Numbered from the stretch's first letter, positions 40,954 through 50,346 are shown. The stretch: DNA of 64,000 nucleotides from Pseudothermotoga sp. (GCA_025060105.1 JANXCS010000002.1:124001-188000); one strand, 5' to 3'. Translations and numbers: made by a program. Notes: generated by a model from the sequence alone, not told the origin.

Positions 40954-41607
40954 TTAGTATTTTCTCCAGCTACCCACATAAATGGCTCCGTGGTTTCCAG
41001 CTCTTCTTCCTGCAACATCGGCCTCTTCAAAGGGAGGTATTGCGTTTGGGGAGAGAAAGATAGCTTCCCTTTCGGCCTCGCACATTCCTAGTAGTTCAAT
41101 CAGATCTTCCTTCGTATAAAAACGTGCTCGATTCCATGGTTCTGTACCCTTATCACCAAGCCTTCGGTAGAGAGCAACCCATGAGGATAAAGCGTTGAGG
41201 ATACCAACTATGAGAATTCCGTTCTTTTTTAAAACCCTCATCGACTCGCTCAGAGTTTTTCGAACGTCTTGAACAAATTCCAGCACTGTGAACAGAAGAA
41301 CCACATCAAAGCTTTCATTCTCTAAAGGTAATTCTTCTCCCCTGGCACAGATCCATCTCGCCCAAGGCGCATTCTTTTTCCCAATTTCTAACATCCGTAT
41401 CGACGGTTCGATCGCGACGACTTCTGAGTATCTGAACCTTCTCAACCACCAGCCAGTGCCAGCTCCAACTTCGAGAAATTTCTCACCTGCAGGTAAAAGG
41501 TCTCTAAGTATTTTCTCCTCTTCTTTGATGATGAAAGAGCCAAGAGGAGTCTCGTACCAACTATCATAGCTTTCCGCTAGATTTGCAAAAGGATCATTGA
41601 GATTCAT
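40954..41607 (-). CDS. Class I SAM-dependent methyltransferase
   Basis: 217 residues from the ATG at 41607 that overlaps the permease stop (ATGA); the longer frame is a shadow. FLEVGAGTGWWLRRF near residue 48 is SAM motif I, AIEPSIRMLEIGKK motif post I, FDVVLLFTVLEFVQD motif II/III and VLKKNGILIVGI motif post III. The beginning NLNDPFANLAESYDSWYETPLG is typical of UbiE/COQ5-like methyltransferases. Last gene of the MacAB operon; its target is unknown. Confidence 0.8.
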   Translation of the reverse strand: MNLNDPFANLAESYDSWYETPLGSFIIKEEEKILRDLLPAGEKFLEVGAGTGWWLRRFRYSEVVAIEPSIRMLEIGKKNAPWARWICARGEELPLENESFDVVLLFTVLEFVQDVRKTLSESMRVLKKNGILIVGILNALSSWVALYRRLGDKGTEPWNRARFYTKEDLIELLGMCEAEREAIFLSPNAIPPFEEADVAGRRAGNHGAIYVGSWRKY

Positions 41608-42812
41608 TCGTATCTGAGGGCTTCCACAGGATTGAGTTTCGAAGCCCTCACAGCTGGCCATACGCCAAAAAACAATCCTACGAGCACCGAAACAGAAACC
41701 GCTATGAAGACTACCGTTGGGGTCACAACGGTTCGAATGGAACCCACACTCGCGATCAGCTTGGAAAGGCCAAAACCCGCCGCAATGCCGAGCAAGCCTG
41801 CAACAAAGGTTAATACGATCGATTCGAGCAAGAACTGAATTAATATGTGCCTTCTGCTAGCACCTATTGCTTTTCTCACACCTATTTCTCTCGTTCTCTC
41901 GGTAACGGTGACCAACATTATGTTCATGATACCGATCCCGCCAACGAGTAAAGAGATGCCTGCAATACTACCGAGCATAAAACTCAACATCGTCATAGTT
42001 TGATTCACAGTCTCGAGCAATGCATCTTGACTGATTATGCGGTATCTCTCTTCATTCTGGAATTTCTCAAAGAGAATTGAATCTATCTCTGAAACTGCTT
42101 GTGCCGCCAAGGTTTCCGAAACTGCCTGTGCGACTATCATGGAAACGTTTTTCCGTCTGAATAGCCTATTTTCAGCGGATGAAAAAGGAACCAAAATGGA
42201 TCTGTCTGGATTCAGGAACAGAAGATTTCCACTCTTTTCGAGCACACCAACAACAACGTAAGACTGTCTCATTGAACCACTTGTAATTCTTATCGTTTGA
42301 CCCAGCGCATTTCCATCTGGGAACAATTGGTCAGCCACTTCTTTGCCTATCACCGCGACGCGACGTCTGCCCCTTTCATCCGATTCATCGAAGAAACTTC
42401 CTTGAGCAAGTTTTATATTCAACATGTTGAACAGAACTGACCTTGAAGCCAATACTGTTGCCATAGCGTTTTGCCTCTCGTACTGTACAACAAAGTTTCC
42501 TTGTTGAACGGGAGTAACGTGTAGCACCGAAGGGCATGCTTGAGCTATTTTATCAGCATCTTCCTTTTCCAAAACCTCAGTCAATGCGATCGCAGTCCTT
42601 CCACCGCCACCTCTGGTGAAACCAGGTGAGATCAGTATCAAATTCGAACCTATAGCAGTCAAGGTTTGCCTGATACTTCTGCTCGTACCCTCGGCGACGG
42701 AGACAACACCTATAACCGCTGCAACGCCTATGATTATCCCAATCATAGAAAGAGCCGCACGAAGCTTGTTGTGGGAAATCGAGCGAAAGGCTTCTTTCAG
42801 CATGTCAAGCAC
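41604..42812 (-). CDS. MacB-type ABC transporter permease
   Basis: 402 residues. N-terminal helix, MacB periplasmic core domain (about 45-240) and FtsX domain with three helices (GGIGIMNIMLVTVTERTREIGVRKAIGAS near 295-325). The ending KLNPVEALRYE is the classic signature. The ATPase is a separate gene upstream, overlapping by 8 bases, as in split MacB systems. With the MacA-like adaptor and TolC-like proteins it should form an efflux or lipoprotein-export complex. Confidence 0.88.
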   Translation of the reverse strand: MLDMLKEAFRSISHNKLRAALSMIGIIIGVAAVIGVVSVAEGTSRSIRQTLTAIGSNLILISPGFTRGGGGRTAIALTEVLEKEDADKIAQACPSVLHVTPVQQGNFVVQYERQNAMATVLASRSVLFNMLNIKLAQGSFFDESDERGRRRVAVIGKEVADQLFPDGNALGQTIRITSGSMRQSYVVVGVLEKSGNLLFLNPDRSILVPFSSAENRLFRRKNVSMIVAQAVSETLAAQAVSEIDSILFEKFQNEERYRIISQDALLETVNQTMTMLSFMLGSIAGISLLVGGIGIMNIMLVTVTERTREIGVRKAIGASRRHILIQFLLESIVLTFVAGLLGIAAGFGLSKLIASVGSIRTVVTPTVVFIAVSVSVLVGLFFGVWPAVRASKLNPVEALRYE

Positions 42813-43506
42813 GCACGTTCACCTCTTCGGAGACGATCTTCCCATCGCGCATTCGAACAATGCGATCGCCACGTTTGGCCACATCGGGATCGTGCGTGAC
42901 CACAATTATAGTCTGACCTTCGCTGTTCAAATCTGAGAATATCTTGAGTATCTCTTCTCCACTCTTAGAATCTAGATTTCCAGTAGGTTCATCTGCGAGC
43001 AGTACGGCTGGTTTGTTTGCCAATGCTCTGGCTATGGCAACTCTTTGCATTTGTCCACCGGAAAGTTGCGTGGGTTTATGGTGCATTCTGTCACCCAAAC
43101 CTACCAACTCTAGCAGCTCTTTTGCCCTATTCCTTCTCAGTTGTCTTGGAACACCAGCGTATATCATTGGAAGCTCAACGTTCTCAAGAGCAGTGAGACG
43201 AGGAAGAAGATTGAATTGTTGGAAAACGAAACCTATCATCTTGTTTCTGATCCTGGCGAGTTGGTTATCGTTCAGTTTCGATACGGGTGTTGAATCGATG
43301 TATATTTCACCATCGTCTGGTTTGTCCAAACATCCCATGACGTGTAGCAATGTTGATTTACCACTTCCCGATGGTCCCATAACTATCAAGAACTCACCCT
43401 CTTCAACTGTAAGGCTCACTCCATCGAGTGCTCTCACCTCATTGTCACCCATTCTGTAGATTTTCCTAACGTTCTCAACCCTTATGATTTCCGCCACACC
43501 GTTCAC
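42805..43506 (-). CDS. MacB/LolD-type ABC transporter ATP-binding protein
   Basis: 233 residues from GTG. Walker A GPSGSGKST near residue 46, Q-loop VFQQFNLLPRLTALENVELPMIYAG, signature LSGGQMQRVAIARALANKP and Walker B LLADEPTGNLDSKSGEEIL, then the switch His in VVTHDPDVAKRGDR. It powers the FtsX-like permease. The start overlaps the stop of the adaptor gene. Confidence 0.93.
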   Translation of the reverse strand: MNGVAEIIRVENVRKIYRMGDNEVRALDGVSLTVEEGEFLIVMGPSGSGKSTLLHVMGCLDKPDDGEIYIDSTPVSKLNDNQLARIRNKMIGFVFQQFNLLPRLTALENVELPMIYAGVPRQLRRNRAKELLELVGLGDRMHHKPTQLSGGQMQRVAIARALANKPAVLLADEPTGNLDSKSGEEILKIFSDLNSEGQTIIVVTHDPDVAKRGDRIVRMRDGKIVSEEVNVRA

Positions 43507-44690
43507 CTCGTTGGTCCAGGACCAAAACCAGGTATGGGCCCAAATGTTTGAGAAGTGCGGTTTGCACTCGTCGTTCTTCCAGTGACTAGTACAACTTCTC
43601 CCTCCGCCAAGCCACTCAAAACCTCGTAAAAATTGCTTGTTCTTACTCCTACACTGATCTCTCTATCTTCTGTGGTACCATCTTTCTTTTTCACCGTCAC
43701 GTAAGACTTCCCCGACACGAACTTAACAGCGTTCACTGGTACAGCGATCACATTCTCTTTACTCAAAGTGACGATATTGACCTCACAGGAGAGACCAGGT
43801 ATAACCCTGCTGGTTTGAGCCTGTATACTTGCGCGTCCCAGCGATGGTCTCTGCCCCGTAGAGAGTTGATTTCTCAATTGTTGCAACCTCTGCTGCACCT
43901 GAGCTTGGTCCATTCCTTGGAACTGATTCCTGAACTGTTGAAACACTTGTTGAATTTGTGATCGCTCCGCACTGGAGAGTTGTGAGATATCCAGATTAAG
44001 CACATCAAGTTCTATGGGTACAACAACTATGCCACCCGAAGTTTCGGCAACGCTTGAAACATAACTGACCCTCGCTCCCAACCTCAAACCTTCGATTGCG
44101 TCGAAACTAACCGTGGCAACTTGTCCAACGGCGATTTTTGAATAATCCACCTCATCCACTGAAGCTGAAATATAAAGCTTCTCAAGATTAACAACTCGAG
44201 CGAGGGTTTTTCCAGTGTTCACCAAATCACCTTGTTTCACATCCAAAGAGGTAACTACTCCGCTTATTGGACTGACTATCTTGCAATTCTCAAGGTCTCT
44301 TTTTGCAAGCTCAAGTTCTATTTCGCGTTGCTGTATTAAAAGTTTGGAACCAGAATTCTTTGCCGTCTCATAATTTTGAAGCGCTTTGATGTAAGCTAAT
44401 TTATACTCAGTGTCATCGATTTCAACGAGTACATCACCCGCTTTGACTTGATCACCTTTATTCACTAACACTTTCTTCACTATACCGGACACCAACGTCC
44501 TTATGTCGGCATACTCTCTCGCTTGAACAGTTCCAGACAATGTAACGGTGTCTATCAGATTCATCTTGGAAACTGTGTATTCACTGACTTGTACCGTGGT
44601 GGTTTGAACCGTGTTTCTGTTGCTACAAGCTGTTAAAATAAAAATGAAAGAAAGAAAAACCAACATCAATCGCAACTTGTGCACTCTCAT
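43503..44690 (-). CDS. MacA/HlyD-type membrane-fusion adaptor lipoprotein
   Basis: 395 residues, lipoprotein signal with TACS lipobox. LVSGIVKKVLVNKGDQVKAGDVLVEIDDTEY is the first half of the lipoyl domain, a short helical hairpin follows, and SPISGVVTSLDVKQGDLVNTGKTLARV is the second half; then beta-barrel and membrane-proximal domains. A Gln-rich coil (VFQQFRNQFQGMDQAQVQQRLQQLRN, about residues 245-275) is inserted in the beta-barrel region. It bridges the MacB-like pump and the TolC-like proteins. Confidence 0.85.
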   Translation of the reverse strand: MRVHKLRLMLVFLSFIFILTACSNRNTVQTTTVQVSEYTVSKMNLIDTVTLSGTVQAREYADIRTLVSGIVKKVLVNKGDQVKAGDVLVEIDDTEYKLAYIKALQNYETAKNSGSKLLIQQREIELELAKRDLENCKIVSPISGVVTSLDVKQGDLVNTGKTLARVVNLEKLYISASVDEVDYSKIAVGQVATVSFDAIEGLRLGARVSYVSSVAETSGGIVVVPIELDVLNLDISQLSSAERSQIQQVFQQFRNQFQGMDQAQVQQRLQQLRNQLSTGQRPSLGRASIQAQTSRVIPGLSCEVNIVTLSKENVIAVPVNAVKFVSGKSYVTVKKKDGTTEDREISVGVRTSNFYEVLSGLAEGEVVLVTGRTTSANRTSQTFGPIPGFGPGPTR

Positions 44691-45997
44691 GCACCTCCTG
44701 AAGCTTCAACCAAATCTATTCCTAAGACCATTAATAAGTTGAGCTTACTCGCCAAAAGATCCAGTTCAGCTTTGAAAAGCTCAAGCTCCGCCTCTTCCAC
44801 ATCGAGTGCGGCTGTTTCGAGATCTCGCGACGAGACAAACTCTTTCTTCTTATTCAAACGATCCAAATTCATCCTTTTGAGTTCTAGGTCCAGTTCTACG
44901 ACCGCTTTGGAAATTTCAGCAATTTTTATCGATGCGTAGGAATCTCTCACCGCTTTCTCTAAGTTTTGCAACTTCTCTTCGTATACTGCTCGCTGCAAGT
45001 TAAATTTCTGCTGCGTCAATTTGTAACTGTGCAACTTTTCTCCGCGATCTAACAAATTGTAGCTGAGCGCGAAACCGAGTGAGATGGAAAAATTCTTCTC
45101 CTCTTTCAGAGTAACCCCAGCTGTAACAGTTGGATTTGGTAACCATGTTTGATAGGATCTTTCATTCTGTTTTTTTGCGATCTCTAGGTCGATGAATGAA
45201 GCTTGTACATCGTATCTCGCCTTAATCGTTTCGAGTGCTTCTTGTTCACTGGGTAATTTTGAAGTCATCTGGCGCAATCGAGCCATCATGGTATCCAAAA
45301 CGGTTTGTGGGTAATTCTTAGAAACACTGAACTTAGCCTGACTGAGCTTTTCTAGCTGTAAAGTGAAGTTTTGCAACTGCTTTTGAGCGCTCACGATATC
45401 TTCGAAGGCAACACTTCCAACTTCGTATGCTTTACGTAACTCTTCAACCTGTTCATTCAAAAGTTGAAGTCTTCTAGATGTGATGTTCAACTTTTTCGCG
45501 TAGTAGAAGCTGTTGAAAACGTCGTTCACCACGTTCAAAAAAATGCTGTTCTTCACAGACAAAAGTTTCCACGCAGCTTCAAAAAGATTCTTTTGCTTTT
45601 CAAGTTGTTGCAGATCAAAATTGGAGAATAAGTCTCTCGAGACGAAAAAAGTCCAACCACTGTCTTTCCATTCTTCAAGGGAAGAATGATAACTCCAACT
45701 GTTTTTGATCGAAAAGTTGAAACCAGCCACGTTTGGGAAAGTTATGGACACAGGTATACTGGTAGAGTAAGTAACATCGGTACCTGAAATCGACGCTGAA
45801 ATACTGAGTCTATCCAAACCGATGTATGGTACTAGCATCGTTTTATCCTTTTTGACCTGAAATTCAATTTCTTCATAACTCAGCTTGGCAGACAGATAAT
45901 TCACATCGGATTGCAAGCTCTTCTGAACCTCATCCATGAAAGCTGCCAGGACAAATCCTGACAGTAACAAAACTAAAAGCAACATTACTTTTTTCAT
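44687..45997 (-). CDS. TolC-family outer-envelope protein, long form
   Basis: 436 residues, signal peptide VMLLLVLLLSGFVLA. Two repeats of long alpha-helical hairpins, for example LQLLNEQVEELRKAYEVGSVAFEDIVSAQKQLQNF and LDRLNKKKEFVSSRDLETAALDVEEAELELFKAELDLLASKL, with beta-rich segments between. This is the outer membrane efflux protein (OEP) pattern. In Thermotogota it would lie in the outer toga. Near normal TolC length. Four-base overlap with the adaptor gene. Confidence 0.75.
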   Translation of the reverse strand: MKKVMLLLVLLLSGFVLAAFMDEVQKSLQSDVNYLSAKLSYEEIEFQVKKDKTMLVPYIGLDRLSISASISGTDVTYSTSIPVSITFPNVAGFNFSIKNSWSYHSSLEEWKDSGWTFFVSRDLFSNFDLQQLEKQKNLFEAAWKLLSVKNSIFLNVVNDVFNSFYYAKKLNITSRRLQLLNEQVEELRKAYEVGSVAFEDIVSAQKQLQNFTLQLEKLSQAKFSVSKNYPQTVLDTMMARLRQMTSKLPSEQEALETIKARYDVQASFIDLEIAKKQNERSYQTWLPNPTVTAGVTLKEEKNFSISLGFALSYNLLDRGEKLHSYKLTQQKFNLQRAVYEEKLQNLEKAVRDSYASIKIAEISKAVVELDLELKRMNLDRLNKKKEFVSSRDLETAALDVEEAELELFKAELDLLASKLNLLMVLGIDLVEASGGA

Positions 45998-46003
45998 GTT
46001 ACA

Positions 46004-47014
46004 TCACTCTCCAAGGGTTGCTGCAAGCATCTTTGAAAAGTCTTGTTCTACATCCACGTGAATATTGCATATACTCTTCAGAAGGGATTTGAGTTGTGTT
46101 AGAAACGTTCTCCTCGCATTTGCGTAGGACAGCTTGGCGCTCAGAACATCCTTCTCGGATGCGACCCCAGCACTGTAGTTCTTCTGCACTGTGTCGAGCT
46201 GTAGTCTTGCGACATCTACCTTTTCAATTTGCGCTTGAATAGATTTTATATTGTTTTTAATTGACTGAATTTGGCTTTCGTAGGACTTTCTCAAAGTTTG
46301 TAAGTACAACTGAACATCGGCTTGAGCTTTTTTCAAATTCCTTTCGTAATAATTCTTCATATATTGGGATGGATTCACCAATCCGTCCAAATCCATCTGT
46401 GCAAGTTGAACATTCAATCTGGCTATAGCGAGCGTTAAAGATTTGTCCATCAGCTGCTCAACAGTTGGCAATGAAAAATTCAGATTCAACTTAGTTGGCA
46501 TTTCAACTTTGATGTTGGCACCTATGAGACTTTCGAAATCTCGTTTCGCTTGTTCTAACGAAAGCTTTGCAGCTTCAAGGTCTCTTTGAGCTTCAATCAG
46601 TGTGGCGCTAGCACTCTTAAGTTCTTGAATCGTTCCAACACCTTTTTCATACAAACCTTTCTTTTCCCTGTTATCGATCTCTGCTATTTGAAGATTCAGT
46701 TGTGCTATTTCGAGAGCAATTTGACTCTCGATTGTTCCGAAATAAACATCGAGAAAGTCACTGAGAAAATTTTTCAGAGATTCTCTGTAACTGTTTTCGG
46801 ATCTCAGCTTGGAAAGTTCTGCAGAGAGTTCCTGCCTTTTATTTTTCGCTTCAAGCAAAGCTTTTTGATAATCGTCCTCAGCTTGCTGACGATCCAGTAC
46901 AAGCTTTAAATACGCTGGGCTGTTATTTTTAGCACTCTCTAGAGCATCTATAACTCCACCAAAGAGCATACAACCGATCAGAACCAAAAACATTAAAAAC
47001 ATTCTACGCCTCAT
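46004..47014 (-). CDS. TolC-family protein, short form
   Basis: 336 residues with a signal peptide (FLMFLVLIGCMLFGG). Long coiled helices (DYQKALLEAKNKRQELSAELSKL, NLQIAEIDNREKKGLYEKGVGTIQELKSASATLIEAQRDLEAAKLSLEQAK) show the OEP pattern, but the protein is about 100 residues shorter than the next one and has little beta-strand sequence. It may be a partner subunit or an adaptor-like variant of the tandem pair. First gene of the efflux operon. Confidence 0.68.
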   Translation of the reverse strand: MRRRMFLMFLVLIGCMLFGGVIDALESAKNNSPAYLKLVLDRQQAEDDYQKALLEAKNKRQELSAELSKLRSENSYRESLKNFLSDFLDVYFGTIESQIALEIAQLNLQIAEIDNREKKGLYEKGVGTIQELKSASATLIEAQRDLEAAKLSLEQAKRDFESLIGANIKVEMPTKLNLNFSLPTVEQLMDKSLTLAIARLNVQLAQMDLDGLVNPSQYMKNYYERNLKKAQADVQLYLQTLRKSYESQIQSIKNNIKSIQAQIEKVDVARLQLDTVQKNYSAGVASEKDVLSAKLSYANARRTFLTQLKSLLKSICNIHVDVEQDFSKMLAATLGE

Positions 47015-47106: not shown

Positions 47107-48855
47107 TTAACCAGCACCGATCTTGCTTCCCCCAGCCCCAGAACCAACAGTTCCACCTCTGAAATTGCTAGAAGAAGATGTCTGTGCGATCGTTTGTGAA
47201 GCCGTTTGAACCATGGATGGAATCACATCCAACATCTTCGGTTGAGCAAGGATAAGATTTGTGACGGATGTCTCAGCGGGTGGGTTGAGCTTCTTGAAAT
47301 TTTCTGCAACCGTTTTTGCGATACCCAAAGCTGTTGCATAAACTATGTACTCGTCCCACATAGCGATAGACTGCGGAGGATACATCGAAAGAGCGGAAAA
47401 ATCCAACAAGAATCTTTCAAAGTTTTTCCATCTCAAGTAGTAAAGTAGACCTTCCTTCGTCCATCTTGAGAAGACATCTTTCCTCATAAGAAAGATAGCT
47501 ATGCCCACTGAAATACACAAAAACATCATGGTTCTTATATAAACAATCATCGGACGATGTTCTGCACCAAAATTAGTCAGAACAATCAATATGGTCAAAG
47601 GTACGAACACACAAAAGATCGCTGCAAAGCTTTTCACAGTCTTATTGCCTTTCTCATCCATGAATTCCTTTTCCCTAATTTTATGTAGAACCTCCATTTG
47701 CCATTTTCTGAAATTTTGTAAGAATTTTCTTGCGCTGGATTCTTTCTGAACAGATTTTTTGAAAGAGTTGAAGTCCAATCTATTCTCTGAAATGAAACCA
47801 TCGAACACCCTTATGAAGCTGTCTTTGGAGACATCGGTCAGAAATTCTATTGCTTCGATTTCTCCCGTTTGCCCTGTGACGATCCTTGCTTTCTTTTCTC
47901 TCACTGCATTGAGCAATACACTGTTTAAACCATGTTCATCAGGAGTGGAGCATAGTCTTCTCACCACACCATTGACTATGTCCGGCGAATCTTTGTAAGG
48001 GATTTCCCTTTCATATTCAGCATCATAAACGACAGAAAACTCTTTACCAAACTTTCTGTAAATGAATACGGGGACCAACAACACAAATGAACCATAGGTT
48101 AAAGCGAAGATCGTACCAAAGTAATTTTTCTGCAGATACCTTTTCTCATGAATCAAAATCTCGCTCAAAGAAACATTTTCACTGCGCTTGAATCGAATGG
48201 GCAAAATTTTTGCGAAAACATACCTTCCCTCAACAAACGTTTCAGGTGGAACGTTTTTGAAGATGAATCGTAACATGTTACCATTCTTCTGCGAACTCAC
48301 CATCAATCCCCAGGGATGCTGATAAACAATTGGTTGGCCGAATTCGCTTGGAAAAACAATTCTAACGTCCAGTTTTTTGGTAACCACTGGAGCTTCTGCT
48401 GCGTATTTGATGAACAACTGTGTGAAATCTTTCCCCTGGATGAGAAGGTTTTTAACTTTGTAACTGAATTTCAACTCGATGATCAAACCATCCTTTGGTA
48501 CCTGGACATATTCTTCCATCGAACGGCTGAACTGGAGAAAGACATCTATGTTTCTTGGCCCAAACCTCTTGAATTGAACCCCTCCGAGTAGCGGTGGTCC
48601 TTGCAAAATATCGTAATGAAAATCTTCTATCAGTGTTCCTTCTGGCATCTCAAGGCTCCATGTAACGTAACGGAAAGGCTTGATGAACCTCATAGTGAAT
48701 GTCTCCGTAATGTTTGCTGTTCCATCACCTTCCATGAGTAACGTGTAAGTCCTAGTTGGAAGCTCGAAAAGTCCATTTGAGGGCCGATTTGTGACAAACA
48801 ACAAGATAAGAAACACGATTGACGCCACTAAAAATGGTACGGTTCGTTTGAACAT
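47107..48855 (-). CDS. DUF2207 membrane protein
   Basis: 582 residues. N-terminal signal/anchor, then a periplasmic DUF2207 domain (GDGTANITETFTMRFIKPFRYVTWSLEMPEGT), membrane helix near 245-265, cytosolic part (DIVNGVVRRLCSTPDEHGLNSVLLNAVREKKARIV), two more helices near 425-475 and a Gly/Ser-rich tail GGTVGSGAGGSKIGAG. The family is widespread but without an assigned function. Last gene of the DUF2089 operon. Confidence 0.75.
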   Translation of the reverse strand: MFKRTVPFLVASIVFLILLFVTNRPSNGLFELPTRTYTLLMEGDGTANITETFTMRFIKPFRYVTWSLEMPEGTLIEDFHYDILQGPPLLGGVQFKRFGPRNIDVFLQFSRSMEEYVQVPKDGLIIELKFSYKVKNLLIQGKDFTQLFIKYAAEAPVVTKKLDVRIVFPSEFGQPIVYQHPWGLMVSSQKNGNMLRFIFKNVPPETFVEGRYVFAKILPIRFKRSENVSLSEILIHEKRYLQKNYFGTIFALTYGSFVLLVPVFIYRKFGKEFSVVYDAEYEREIPYKDSPDIVNGVVRRLCSTPDEHGLNSVLLNAVREKKARIVTGQTGEIEAIEFLTDVSKDSFIRVFDGFISENRLDFNSFKKSVQKESSARKFLQNFRKWQMEVLHKIREKEFMDEKGNKTVKSFAAIFCVFVPLTILIVLTNFGAEHRPMIVYIRTMMFLCISVGIAIFLMRKDVFSRWTKEGLLYYLRWKNFERFLLDFSALSMYPPQSIAMWDEYIVYATALGIAKTVAENFKKLNPPAETSVTNLILAQPKMLDVIPSMVQTASQTIAQTSSSSNFRGGTVGSGAGGSKIGAG

Positions 48856-48856
48856 C

Positions 48857-49660
48857 TTAGCTCAACTCCTCGAGCATTCGTTTTGCTTCCTCATAGCTCA
48901 ACTTCCCCTCAGCAACGAGTCTGAGTATCCTTCTCTCGATTTCTTCCACCCGTTCTCTCTTACTCATAACTTTGACTCTCACGTCTCCAGAAACAGTTGA
49001 AACTATTATCCTCATTCGCCCATCGCCAAAAACGTACTCGTTACCATGACGGCTGTACCCAACATTAGAGGTCAATTCTCCACTCGCGCTCTTCAAGATC
49101 AACTTCATATTCGGTAAACCTACAACGTTCAACTCTACGTCTCCACTCACGGTATTCAAAAGCCAGTCATGTTCTCTACACTCCAGTTTGTTCACAATCA
49201 CATCTCCACTTGCGTTACTGATAACCAATCTTTCTACGTCAATGGCTGAAAGTACAACATCTCCGGAAACTGATTTGACCTCAACATTCCGTGATCTACA
49301 ATTTTCAAGAATGATCTCACCTGAAACTGTTCTGAACATGCATTTTTCCGCATTCACTGATGAAACTTGAACATCTGCGGAGACGGAATTAACAAAAATC
49401 GACGCTAGATCCACGGGAATGTGTAGTTCCAACTGTTCTGAAGAACTCGAACTGAAACCAAGCAAACCAAAAATTCCGCTCTCAATCTTTTTCGCATCTA
49501 TGATCAACGCATTGCCATCGATACGAACATCGGGTTCGATCTCCTCGAAAAACAATTTGAAACTTCTTTCTGGACTTCTCGTGACCTTTAAATTCCCACT
49601 GGTGATCTTTACTCGAACTTCACTGACTTGTTTTTCTATCGAAATGAACTTTTTTTCCAC
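48857..49660 (-). CDS. DUF4097 beta-solenoid protein with C-terminal SHOCT-like helix pair
   Basis: 267 residues from the GTG at 49660 behind GGAGGTGA; the longer frame includes that site. Repeated strands SVSADVQVSSV, TVSGEIILENC, SVSGDVVLSAI, NASGDVIVNKL, TVSGDVELNVV, SASGELTSNVG, TVSGDVRVKVM form a right-handed solenoid typical of DUF4097 proteins. The end (VEEIERRILRLVAEGKLSYEEAKRMLEEL) is a SHOCT/YvlB-type helical pair. DUF4097 genes often accompany envelope-stress regulators (LiaG/YvlB). No signal peptide, so probably cytosolic or membrane-bound through partners. Confidence 0.75.
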   Translation of the reverse strand: MEKKFISIEKQVSEVRVKITSGNLKVTRSPERSFKLFFEEIEPDVRIDGNALIIDAKKIESGIFGLLGFSSSSSEQLELHIPVDLASIFVNSVSADVQVSSVNAEKCMFRTVSGEIILENCRSRNVEVKSVSGDVVLSAIDVERLVISNASGDVIVNKLECREHDWLLNTVSGDVELNVVGLPNMKLILKSASGELTSNVGYSRHGNEYVFGDGRMRIIVSTVSGDVRVKVMSKRERVEEIERRILRLVAEGKLSYEEAKRMLEELS

Positions 49661-49671
49661 AGCTTCACCTC

Positions 49672-49896
49672 CTAAAAACCCATGAATCTGATGATCACCC
49701 ATATGACGACGATCTCACCGACGATGTAAAACAATATCGGTATGACATTCCCTAACAACAGAAGAAAAGCGTACAGTGCTACGAAGAAAGCGTAAGTCAT
49801 GGCTATGGATCTCACTTTAATCTGAAGAAGTTTGTATCCTATGTACGCTAGAAGCAAAGCCCCTATAATGCCAACTATTATTTTGAAAATCAGCAT
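49672..49896 (-). CDS. Small two-to-three-helix membrane protein
   Basis: 74 residues, almost all hydrophobic: IIVGIIGALLLAYIGYKLLQI, YAFFVALYAFLLLLGNVIPILFYIVGEIVVIWVII. Three predicted helices with few charges. I recognise no family. It lies between the DUF2089 regulator and the DUF4097 gene, two bases after the former, so it is a likely membrane component of the same system, similar in place to LiaI-type small proteins. Confidence 0.6.
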   Translation of the reverse strand: MLIFKIIVGIIGALLLAYIGYKLLQIKVRSIAMTYAFFVALYAFLLLLGNVIPILFYIVGEIVVIWVIIRFMGF

Positions 49897-49898
49897 AG

Positions 49899-50276
49899 TT
49901 ACACGCCTTCCTTGAGTTTTCTAATTTTTTCAAGAGCCTCCTGTGCGGATATTTCTCCTCTCTCGAGACTTTCCAAGACCTCGTTCACTTGTCTTTCTTG
50001 CTGGACCTCCACAGCCTCATAACCCAACGTTTTGACGATGGCCTCGAGCCTCGATCGAGCTGTGGGATAAGAAATTCCAAGTTCCTTTTGAACCTCACTG
50101 AGATTCCCCCGAGCTTTTATGAAAATCCTTAGAAAGCTCAATTGCTCCGGTGAAAGTCTGAAAAATTCTTCCAGTTCGAACTTTCCCCTTATTGTCGTTC
50201 CACACGACGGGCAACTGAGCTCAGTTATCAACAATTGATTATCACAAACGGGACACCTCGAGATCACACGCGCCAT
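49899..50276 (-). CDS. DUF2089 zinc-ribbon/helix-turn-helix regulator
   Basis: 125 residues. N-terminal zinc ribbon SRCPVCDNQLLITELSCPSCG, helix-turn-helix LSFLRIFIKARGNLSEVQKELGISYPTARSRLEAIVKTLGY (about 47-87) and a SHOCT-like C-terminal pair VNEVLESLERGEISAQEALEKIRKLKEG, the same type as the end of the DUF4097 protein. It is a likely DNA-binding regulator. Its own promoter is overlaid by two palindromes, so autoregulation is likely. Ribosome site AAGAGGTGAT. Confidence 0.78.
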   Translation of the reverse strand: MARVISRCPVCDNQLLITELSCPSCGTTIRGKFELEEFFRLSPEQLSFLRIFIKARGNLSEVQKELGISYPTARSRLEAIVKTLGYEAVEVQQERQVNEVLESLERGEISAQEALEKIRKLKEGV

Positions 50277-50298
50277 TCAAATCACCTCTTTCAATTTA

Positions 50299-50314
50299 TT
50301 TAGTTTGAACTAAA
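50299..50314 (-). promoter_or_regulatory. Operator candidate at the DUF2089 transcription start
   Basis: Perfect palindrome TTTAGTT-TG-AACTAAA, 7-bp arms. It lies just after the -10 box, covering the expected transcription start. Confidence 0.6.
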
Positions 50315-50317
50315 AAT

Positions 50318-50346
50318 ATTTTAGTCTAAGACTCAAACTTTGTCAA
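50318..50346 (-). promoter_or_regulatory. Consensus promoter of the DUF2089 operon
   Basis: Minus strand: perfect TTGACA (50341-50346), 17-base spacer, TAAAAT (50318-50323). Confidence 0.75.
50323..50333 (-). promoter_or_regulatory. Second palindrome within the promoter spacer
   Basis: AGTCT-A-AGACT lies between -35 and -10. With the palindrome at 50299-50314, it makes two symmetric sites within 35 bases. Confidence 0.4.

Follow-up and report, generated by a model that had tools for sequence, protein, structure and literature searches.

Background

The arrangement closest to the locus described here is a conserved gene context reported by Ravi et al. (2024; PMC11237479), in which a DUF2089 protein (zinc ribbon, HTH, and SHOCT-like domain) is found with a toastrack protein. 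A PSP-like role was proposed for this context and SHOCT-like domains were proposed to be membrane anchors; Thermotogota, DUF2207, and bactofilin do not appear in the main text. The toastrack is also a recurrent partner of components of the phage shock protein (PspA) system. In LiaFSR-LiaX/LiaG and YvlABCD of Firmicutes, an envelope-stress operon combines small membrane proteins with a toastrack protein that bears SHOCT-like helices. In leaderless bacteriocin clusters (enterocin DD14, bawcin; PMC7332713, PMC10707071), HlyD, an ABC ATPase, and a MacB-type permease are encoded alongside a small membrane protein and a DUF2089 protein. The DUF2089 proteins there are 89-98 aa long, and neither toastrack nor DUF2207 is listed.

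The operon analyzed here lies in a 64,000-nucleotide stretch of DNA (hereafter, the window) from Pseudothermotoga sp. (GCA_025060105.1 JANXCS010000002.1:124001-188000). It shares with the context of Ravi et al. the presence of DUF2089 and toastrack genes in one operon and the proposed link from membrane signal to transcription. It differs in that the membrane partner is a 74-aa protein rather than LiaI-LiaF-TM, PspC, or a B-box protein, and in that DUF2207 and MacAB-TolC-type genes follow. Given the 2024 publication of DUF2089 with toastrack, the system can no longer be called undescribed, as the initial annotation had done. Its description as a Lia/Yvl-like layout lacking a two-component system was borne out: unlike in LiaFSR-LiaX/LiaG, no histidine kinase or response regulator is encoded among the nine genes, and neither a match to PspA/IM30 nor PspC was found in the window's genome. 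The locus is thus a recognizable envelope-response module with new details, not a new kind of system; to a conserved regulator-scaffold module known in outline, it adds DUF2207 and a MacAB-TolC-type exporter.

Operon organization and gene content

The coordinates of all features are collected in Table 1. The genes for DUF2089, the 74-aa protein, DUF4097, and DUF2207 follow one promoter and are tightly spaced on the minus strand, so that the compact four-gene array noted earlier was confirmed, as were its families by Pfam. The start of the DUF4097 gene was placed at the GTG at 49,660, which stands behind GGAGGTG, and an upstream ATG was discarded.

Table 1 Features of the operon and its promoter (window coordinates)
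Feature	Position	Strand	Remarks
-35 hexamer TTGACA, operon promoter	50341..50346	-	identical in 11/11 family promoters
-10 hexamer TAAAAT, spacer 17 nt	50318..50323	-	similar hexamers in relatives
Palindrome ACTAAAA-ATA-TTTTAGT over -10	50309..50325	.	symmetry weakly kept in relatives
Palindrome TTTAGTT-TG-AACTAAA	50299..50314	.	unique in this genome; absent from sister promoters
DUF2089 regulator, 125 aa (zinc ribbon, HTH, SHOCT-like tail)	49899..50276	-	Pfam, model
Membrane protein, 74 aa, matching no known family	49672..49896	-	orthologues in the window's family and one outgroup
Toastrack (DUF4097) protein, C-terminal SHOCT-like helix pair, GTG start	48857..49660	-	
DUF2207 membrane protein	47107..48855	-	joined to the module only in the window's family
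TolC-like outer-membrane efflux protein (OEP) 1	46004..47014	-	
TolC-like outer-membrane efflux protein (OEP) 2	44687..45997	-	
HlyD/MacA-type periplasmic adaptor	43503..44690	-	TIGR01730 above cut-off
MacB-type ABC ATPase, separate chain	42805..43506	-	
MacB/FtsX-type permease, separate chain	41604..42812	-	

Five exporter genes lie downstream of the DUF2207 gene after a gap of 92 nt, in which no terminator was detected. Their products matched models for the HlyD/RND adaptor, the MacB_PCD and FtsX permease, the ABC ATPase, and OEP. The set resembles the MacAB-TolC exporter in its adaptor, MacB-type ATPase and permease, and TolC-type outer-membrane proteins, and departs from it in carrying ATPase and permease as separate chains and in having two OEP genes. 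Gene order, exporter included, was kept across the window's family wherever the contig was long enough, except in one genome (G059) that retained the first genes of the operon and lost the exporter. Because the exporter genes follow without a detected terminator and gene order is stable across the family, the operon probably extends into them, which would make the functional unit one of nine co-transcribed genes. The operon limit placed earlier at 47,107 is therefore probably wrong, the TolC-TolC-HlyD/MacA-MacB continuation having been overlooked.

A methyltransferase-like gene (window 40,954-41,661) overlaps the end of the MacB permease gene; its orthologues also lie 3' of the exporter at two other loci of the same genus (L033, L035).

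Protein domains and predicted folds

The regulator matched the DUF2089 HTH domain (PF09862; 84.4 bits, cut-off 33.4, E = 4e-24) and zinc ribbon (PF22747; 56.8 bits, cut-off 27.6, E = 2e-15), the cysteines of which are nearly invariant. It is 96% and 75-76% identical to homologues of named relatives, and the genome is Pseudothermotoga-type. A fold search with the regulator gave no significant whole-chain match; only the HTH segments of LuxR-type, sigma-4-type, and other regulators were matched.

The toastrack protein matched PF13349 (DUF4097; 73.7 bits, cut-off 22.9, E = 2e-20), and its model, a beta-solenoid, matched solved toastracks in a fold search (4qrk, E = 3e-11); its sequence profile found no match among the sequences of solved structures. 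No membrane segment or signal peptide was apparent in it. Scores far below cut-off against the LiaG model (39.3 of 285 bits) and the LiaX model (22.6 of 350 bits) ruled out an assignment to either. The N and C domains of the DUF2207 protein were recognized by Pfam (E = 2e-16 and 6e-50). The 74-aa membrane protein matched no Pfam family, and a negative profile comparison ruled it out as LiaF-TM.

Toward PF22746 (SHOCT-like_DUF2089-C), the regulator tail scored 24.9 bits, slightly below the cut-off of 27, and the toastrack C-terminus 33.5 bits, above it. The AlphaFold models place two helices at each C-terminus (H89-105 and H111-123 in the regulator, H234-250 and H256-266 in the toastrack protein) with nearly equal helix lengths in the two proteins. 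Since a modelled helix pair and a PF22746 match (just sub-threshold in the regulator) occur at both protein ends, the initial annotation was right in seeing similar SHOCT-like helix pairs there.

Distribution of the module

Among 103 Thermotogota genomes, DUF2089 was present in 98, covering all 38 genera, toastrack in 69, and DUF2207_C above cut-off in 51. DUF2089 and toastrack genes adjoin across the phylum. DUF2207 was linked to this pair only in the window's family (f1; 11/11 loci) and was unlinked elsewhere, for which reason it was rejected as a core member. Judged by this linkage, the module is one of two families plus lineage-specific additions and not of four families: the proposed four-family co-occurrence held for the DUF2089-toastrack pair and failed for DUF2207 outside f1.

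These additions are DUF2207 and MacAB-TolC in the window's family, LiaF-TM-like membrane proteins in other families, and MFS or ABC-2 exporters in f2, f3, f4, and f8. Altogether, nonhomologous exporters (MacAB-TolC, MFS, ABC-2) were found in 38/121 operons, and no exporter was called in the remaining 83. The automated count of operons with a partner, 107/121, is slightly low, as ORF picking missed some partners (e.g., at L044, L068, and L078).

A SHOCT-like helix pair shared by the regulator and its partners

The 119 PF22746 matches above the Pfam cut-off listed from the 103 Thermotogota genomes comprised 49 DUF2089 tails and 70 other proteins. All but four of the other proteins (66/70) are encoded on the same strand and ≤ 3 kb downstream of a DUF2089 gene, where about 0.3% would be expected by chance; two of them, at 25-28 nt, may instead represent tails of DUF2089 to which a different reading frame length was given. 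These partners are unrelated scaffolds: the domain sits at the C-terminus of toastrack proteins and at the N-terminus of bactofilin-type and small, ~120-aa proteins.

An HMM built solely from Thermotogota DUF2089 tails was run against neighbor genes. It matched the +1 gene at 49/120 loci and the +2 gene at 21/116, with 0/182 matches among upstream genes and 4/299 among later ones. Outside Thermotogota (45 loci from Chloroflexi, WOR-3, Hydrothermae, Firmicutes, Armatimonadota, Cloacimonadota, an archaeon, and others), the same HMM matched 25/43 +1 genes, and Pfam confirmed the SHOCT-like domain in sampled partners from other phyla. Tail and partner occurred together at 33 of these loci (many from Anaerococcus and hence not independent), neither at 6, the partner only at 5, and the tail only at 1. 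DUF2089 proteins of Oscillospiraceae and related bacteria (L218, L220, L225-L227) are 249-289 aa long and carry a long unassigned domain instead of the tail; no SHOCT-bearing neighbor of their genes was found. Second DUF2089 copies in a Mesotoga-type genus (g27; L144-L150, L069) are without a SHOCT partner, two having in-frame stops and one being truncated.

At positions 10, 17, and 19, the mean charge of the tail is opposite to that of the partner, the sense at position 19 being reversed in some bactofilin-type loci. Charge covariation was borderline (minimum z -3.54 versus a 5% null of -3.38) and is confounded by phylogeny; it was rejected as proof of contact and kept as suggestive. As far as gene neighborhoods can tell, the coupling of regulator and scaffold through a shared helix pair is a strong, scaffold-independent association, and it is the best-supported finding of the analysis. 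What is new here, and can be tested, is that the SHOCT-like pair appears to be the element that unites the regulator with several partners of unrelated kinds.

Promoter dyads

The promoter TTGACA-17-TAAAAT has 11/12 matches. Two palindromes had been described as covering it, and both are exact (7+7) in the window. Their reading as an operator was rejected: they are not conserved in 10 relatives, palindromes equal to them arose in 14/100 window shuffles (not above chance), and their symmetry across the 11 orthologous promoters of the window's family was at the null level of column permutations.

Conserved promoter dyads were found in sister lineages (genus g32 of f10, f3, and genus g5 of f2) and none in the window's family, despite its conserved promoter. 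In g32, a nearly perfect 33-bp dyad, ATACCACTTGACTTT...AAAGTTAAGTGGTAT, runs from -35 to -10 with a mean symmetry of 0.92 (0/60 column permutations). It is present in 7/7 genomes, each time as a single copy at the DUF2089 promoter. In f3, two AAATATTT-type palindromes lie over -35 and -10 (0/60 column permutations), and the double site has its exact match only at the DUF2089 promoter. Because the dyads are conserved there and not in the window's family, autorepression is supported in sister lineages and is something we infer for the window's operon.

In promoters of genus g27 of f9 (L068, L082, L083, L087), a conserved palindrome, (C/T)TAAATATATTTAAG, lies immediately upstream of the DUF2089 -35, a possible site for an activator or a second operator.

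Proposed mechanism and alternative explanations

The following model builds on gene content, domains, and predicted folds, together with the conserved linkage and the promoter dyads of sister lineages. DUF2089 would bind its own promoter and repress the operon, repression being the presumed sign of control. Its C-terminal SHOCT-like pair would dock on the matching pair of the toastrack scaffold, a cytoplasmic protein that would be kept at the membrane, probably with the 74-aa membrane protein as its anchor. Membrane or peptide stress, the presumed inducing signal, would alter the regulator-scaffold complex, relieve repression, and raise expression of the operon, with DUF2207 and a presumably co-transcribed MacAB-TolC-type exporter as outputs in the window's family. 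The occurrence of DUF2089 with HlyD, ABC, and MacB genes in bacteriocin clusters (PMC7332713, PMC10707071) fits an output directed against membrane-active peptides. In our judgment, the chances are about even that this is a one-component, autorepressed envelope-response operon whose regulator docks by its tail on a SHOCT-bearing sub-membrane partner. Several points weigh against this model, namely the regulator tail just below the Pfam cut-off, the lack of a conserved dyad at the window promoter, the exporter gone from the G059 operon and uncalled in most others, and the weak charge signal. The original SHOCT domain also did not oligomerize in its first test, binding to something else being left open (PMC3581485), and this is counted against docking of the helix pairs.

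That last result sits more easily with the SHOCT-like pairs being independent membrane anchors, as already published for such domains (PMC11237479), so that regulator and scaffold would each lie at the inner leaflet with no mutual binding through them. We consider this unlikely, though worth serious weight, since it leaves unexplained the near-total adjacency of such domains to DUF2089 in Thermotogota, the absence of a SHOCT-bearing neighbor where Oscillospiraceae DUF2089 lacks the tail, and the opposite average charges on the two sides. The bacteriocin clusters allow a different interpretation, in which the operon would protect the cell, by immunity or export, from membrane-active peptides of its own or of a competitor, and DUF2089 and the small membrane protein would be immunity factors rather than parts of a stress-sensing regulator. 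The window's DUF2089 protein, however, has a complete zinc ribbon and HTH, no bacteriocin-like gene was noticed among the abutting genes of the operon, and DUF2089 is nearly universal in Thermotogota, mostly with no exporter called in its operon. An immunity role is thus improbable. Least probable, in our estimate, is that DUF2089 senses metal or redox through its zinc ribbon and that toastrack adjacency is mere co-transcription of membrane housekeeping genes. The near invariance of the zinc ribbon cysteines would suit such a sensor, as would a Streptococcus mutans DUF2207 protein that affects acid and peroxide tolerance, without a major shift in its mutant's susceptibility to cell-wall antimicrobials (PMC10457818); this alternative has no room for SHOCT-specific coupling across unrelated scaffolds.

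Were the docking of regulator on scaffold true, it would give the widespread, as yet unassigned SHOCT-like domain a concrete, testable job, namely to couple a one-component repressor to a scaffold on the membrane side. Toastrack signaling where there is no two-component system or PspA would likewise be explained, and a heat-stable system would be on offer for its study. Applied to this operon, docking predicts that a MacAB-TolC-type exporter of a diderm thermophile is under stress control. More tentatively, and with somewhat less than even confidence, SHOCT-like pairs may form a general heterotypic docking code for kinase-free, plug-in signaling across phyla, with one half on the DUF2089 autorepressor and the other on toastrack, bactofilin, small proteins, or perhaps LemA.

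Additional SHOCT-like loci

At a betaproteobacterial locus (L230:3231-4538), a DUF2089 gene is followed by one for a LemA protein with an N-terminal helix pair of SHOCT-like appearance, which is not reported by Pfam. The window's genome has a second SHOCT-like locus (L231:6279-7194; G000 contig C1), with genes for a small SHOCT protein and a protein of membrane type. A ribosomal-protein gene and valS flank this locus, and at the same place relatives carry a second DUF2089 gene, which is missing here.
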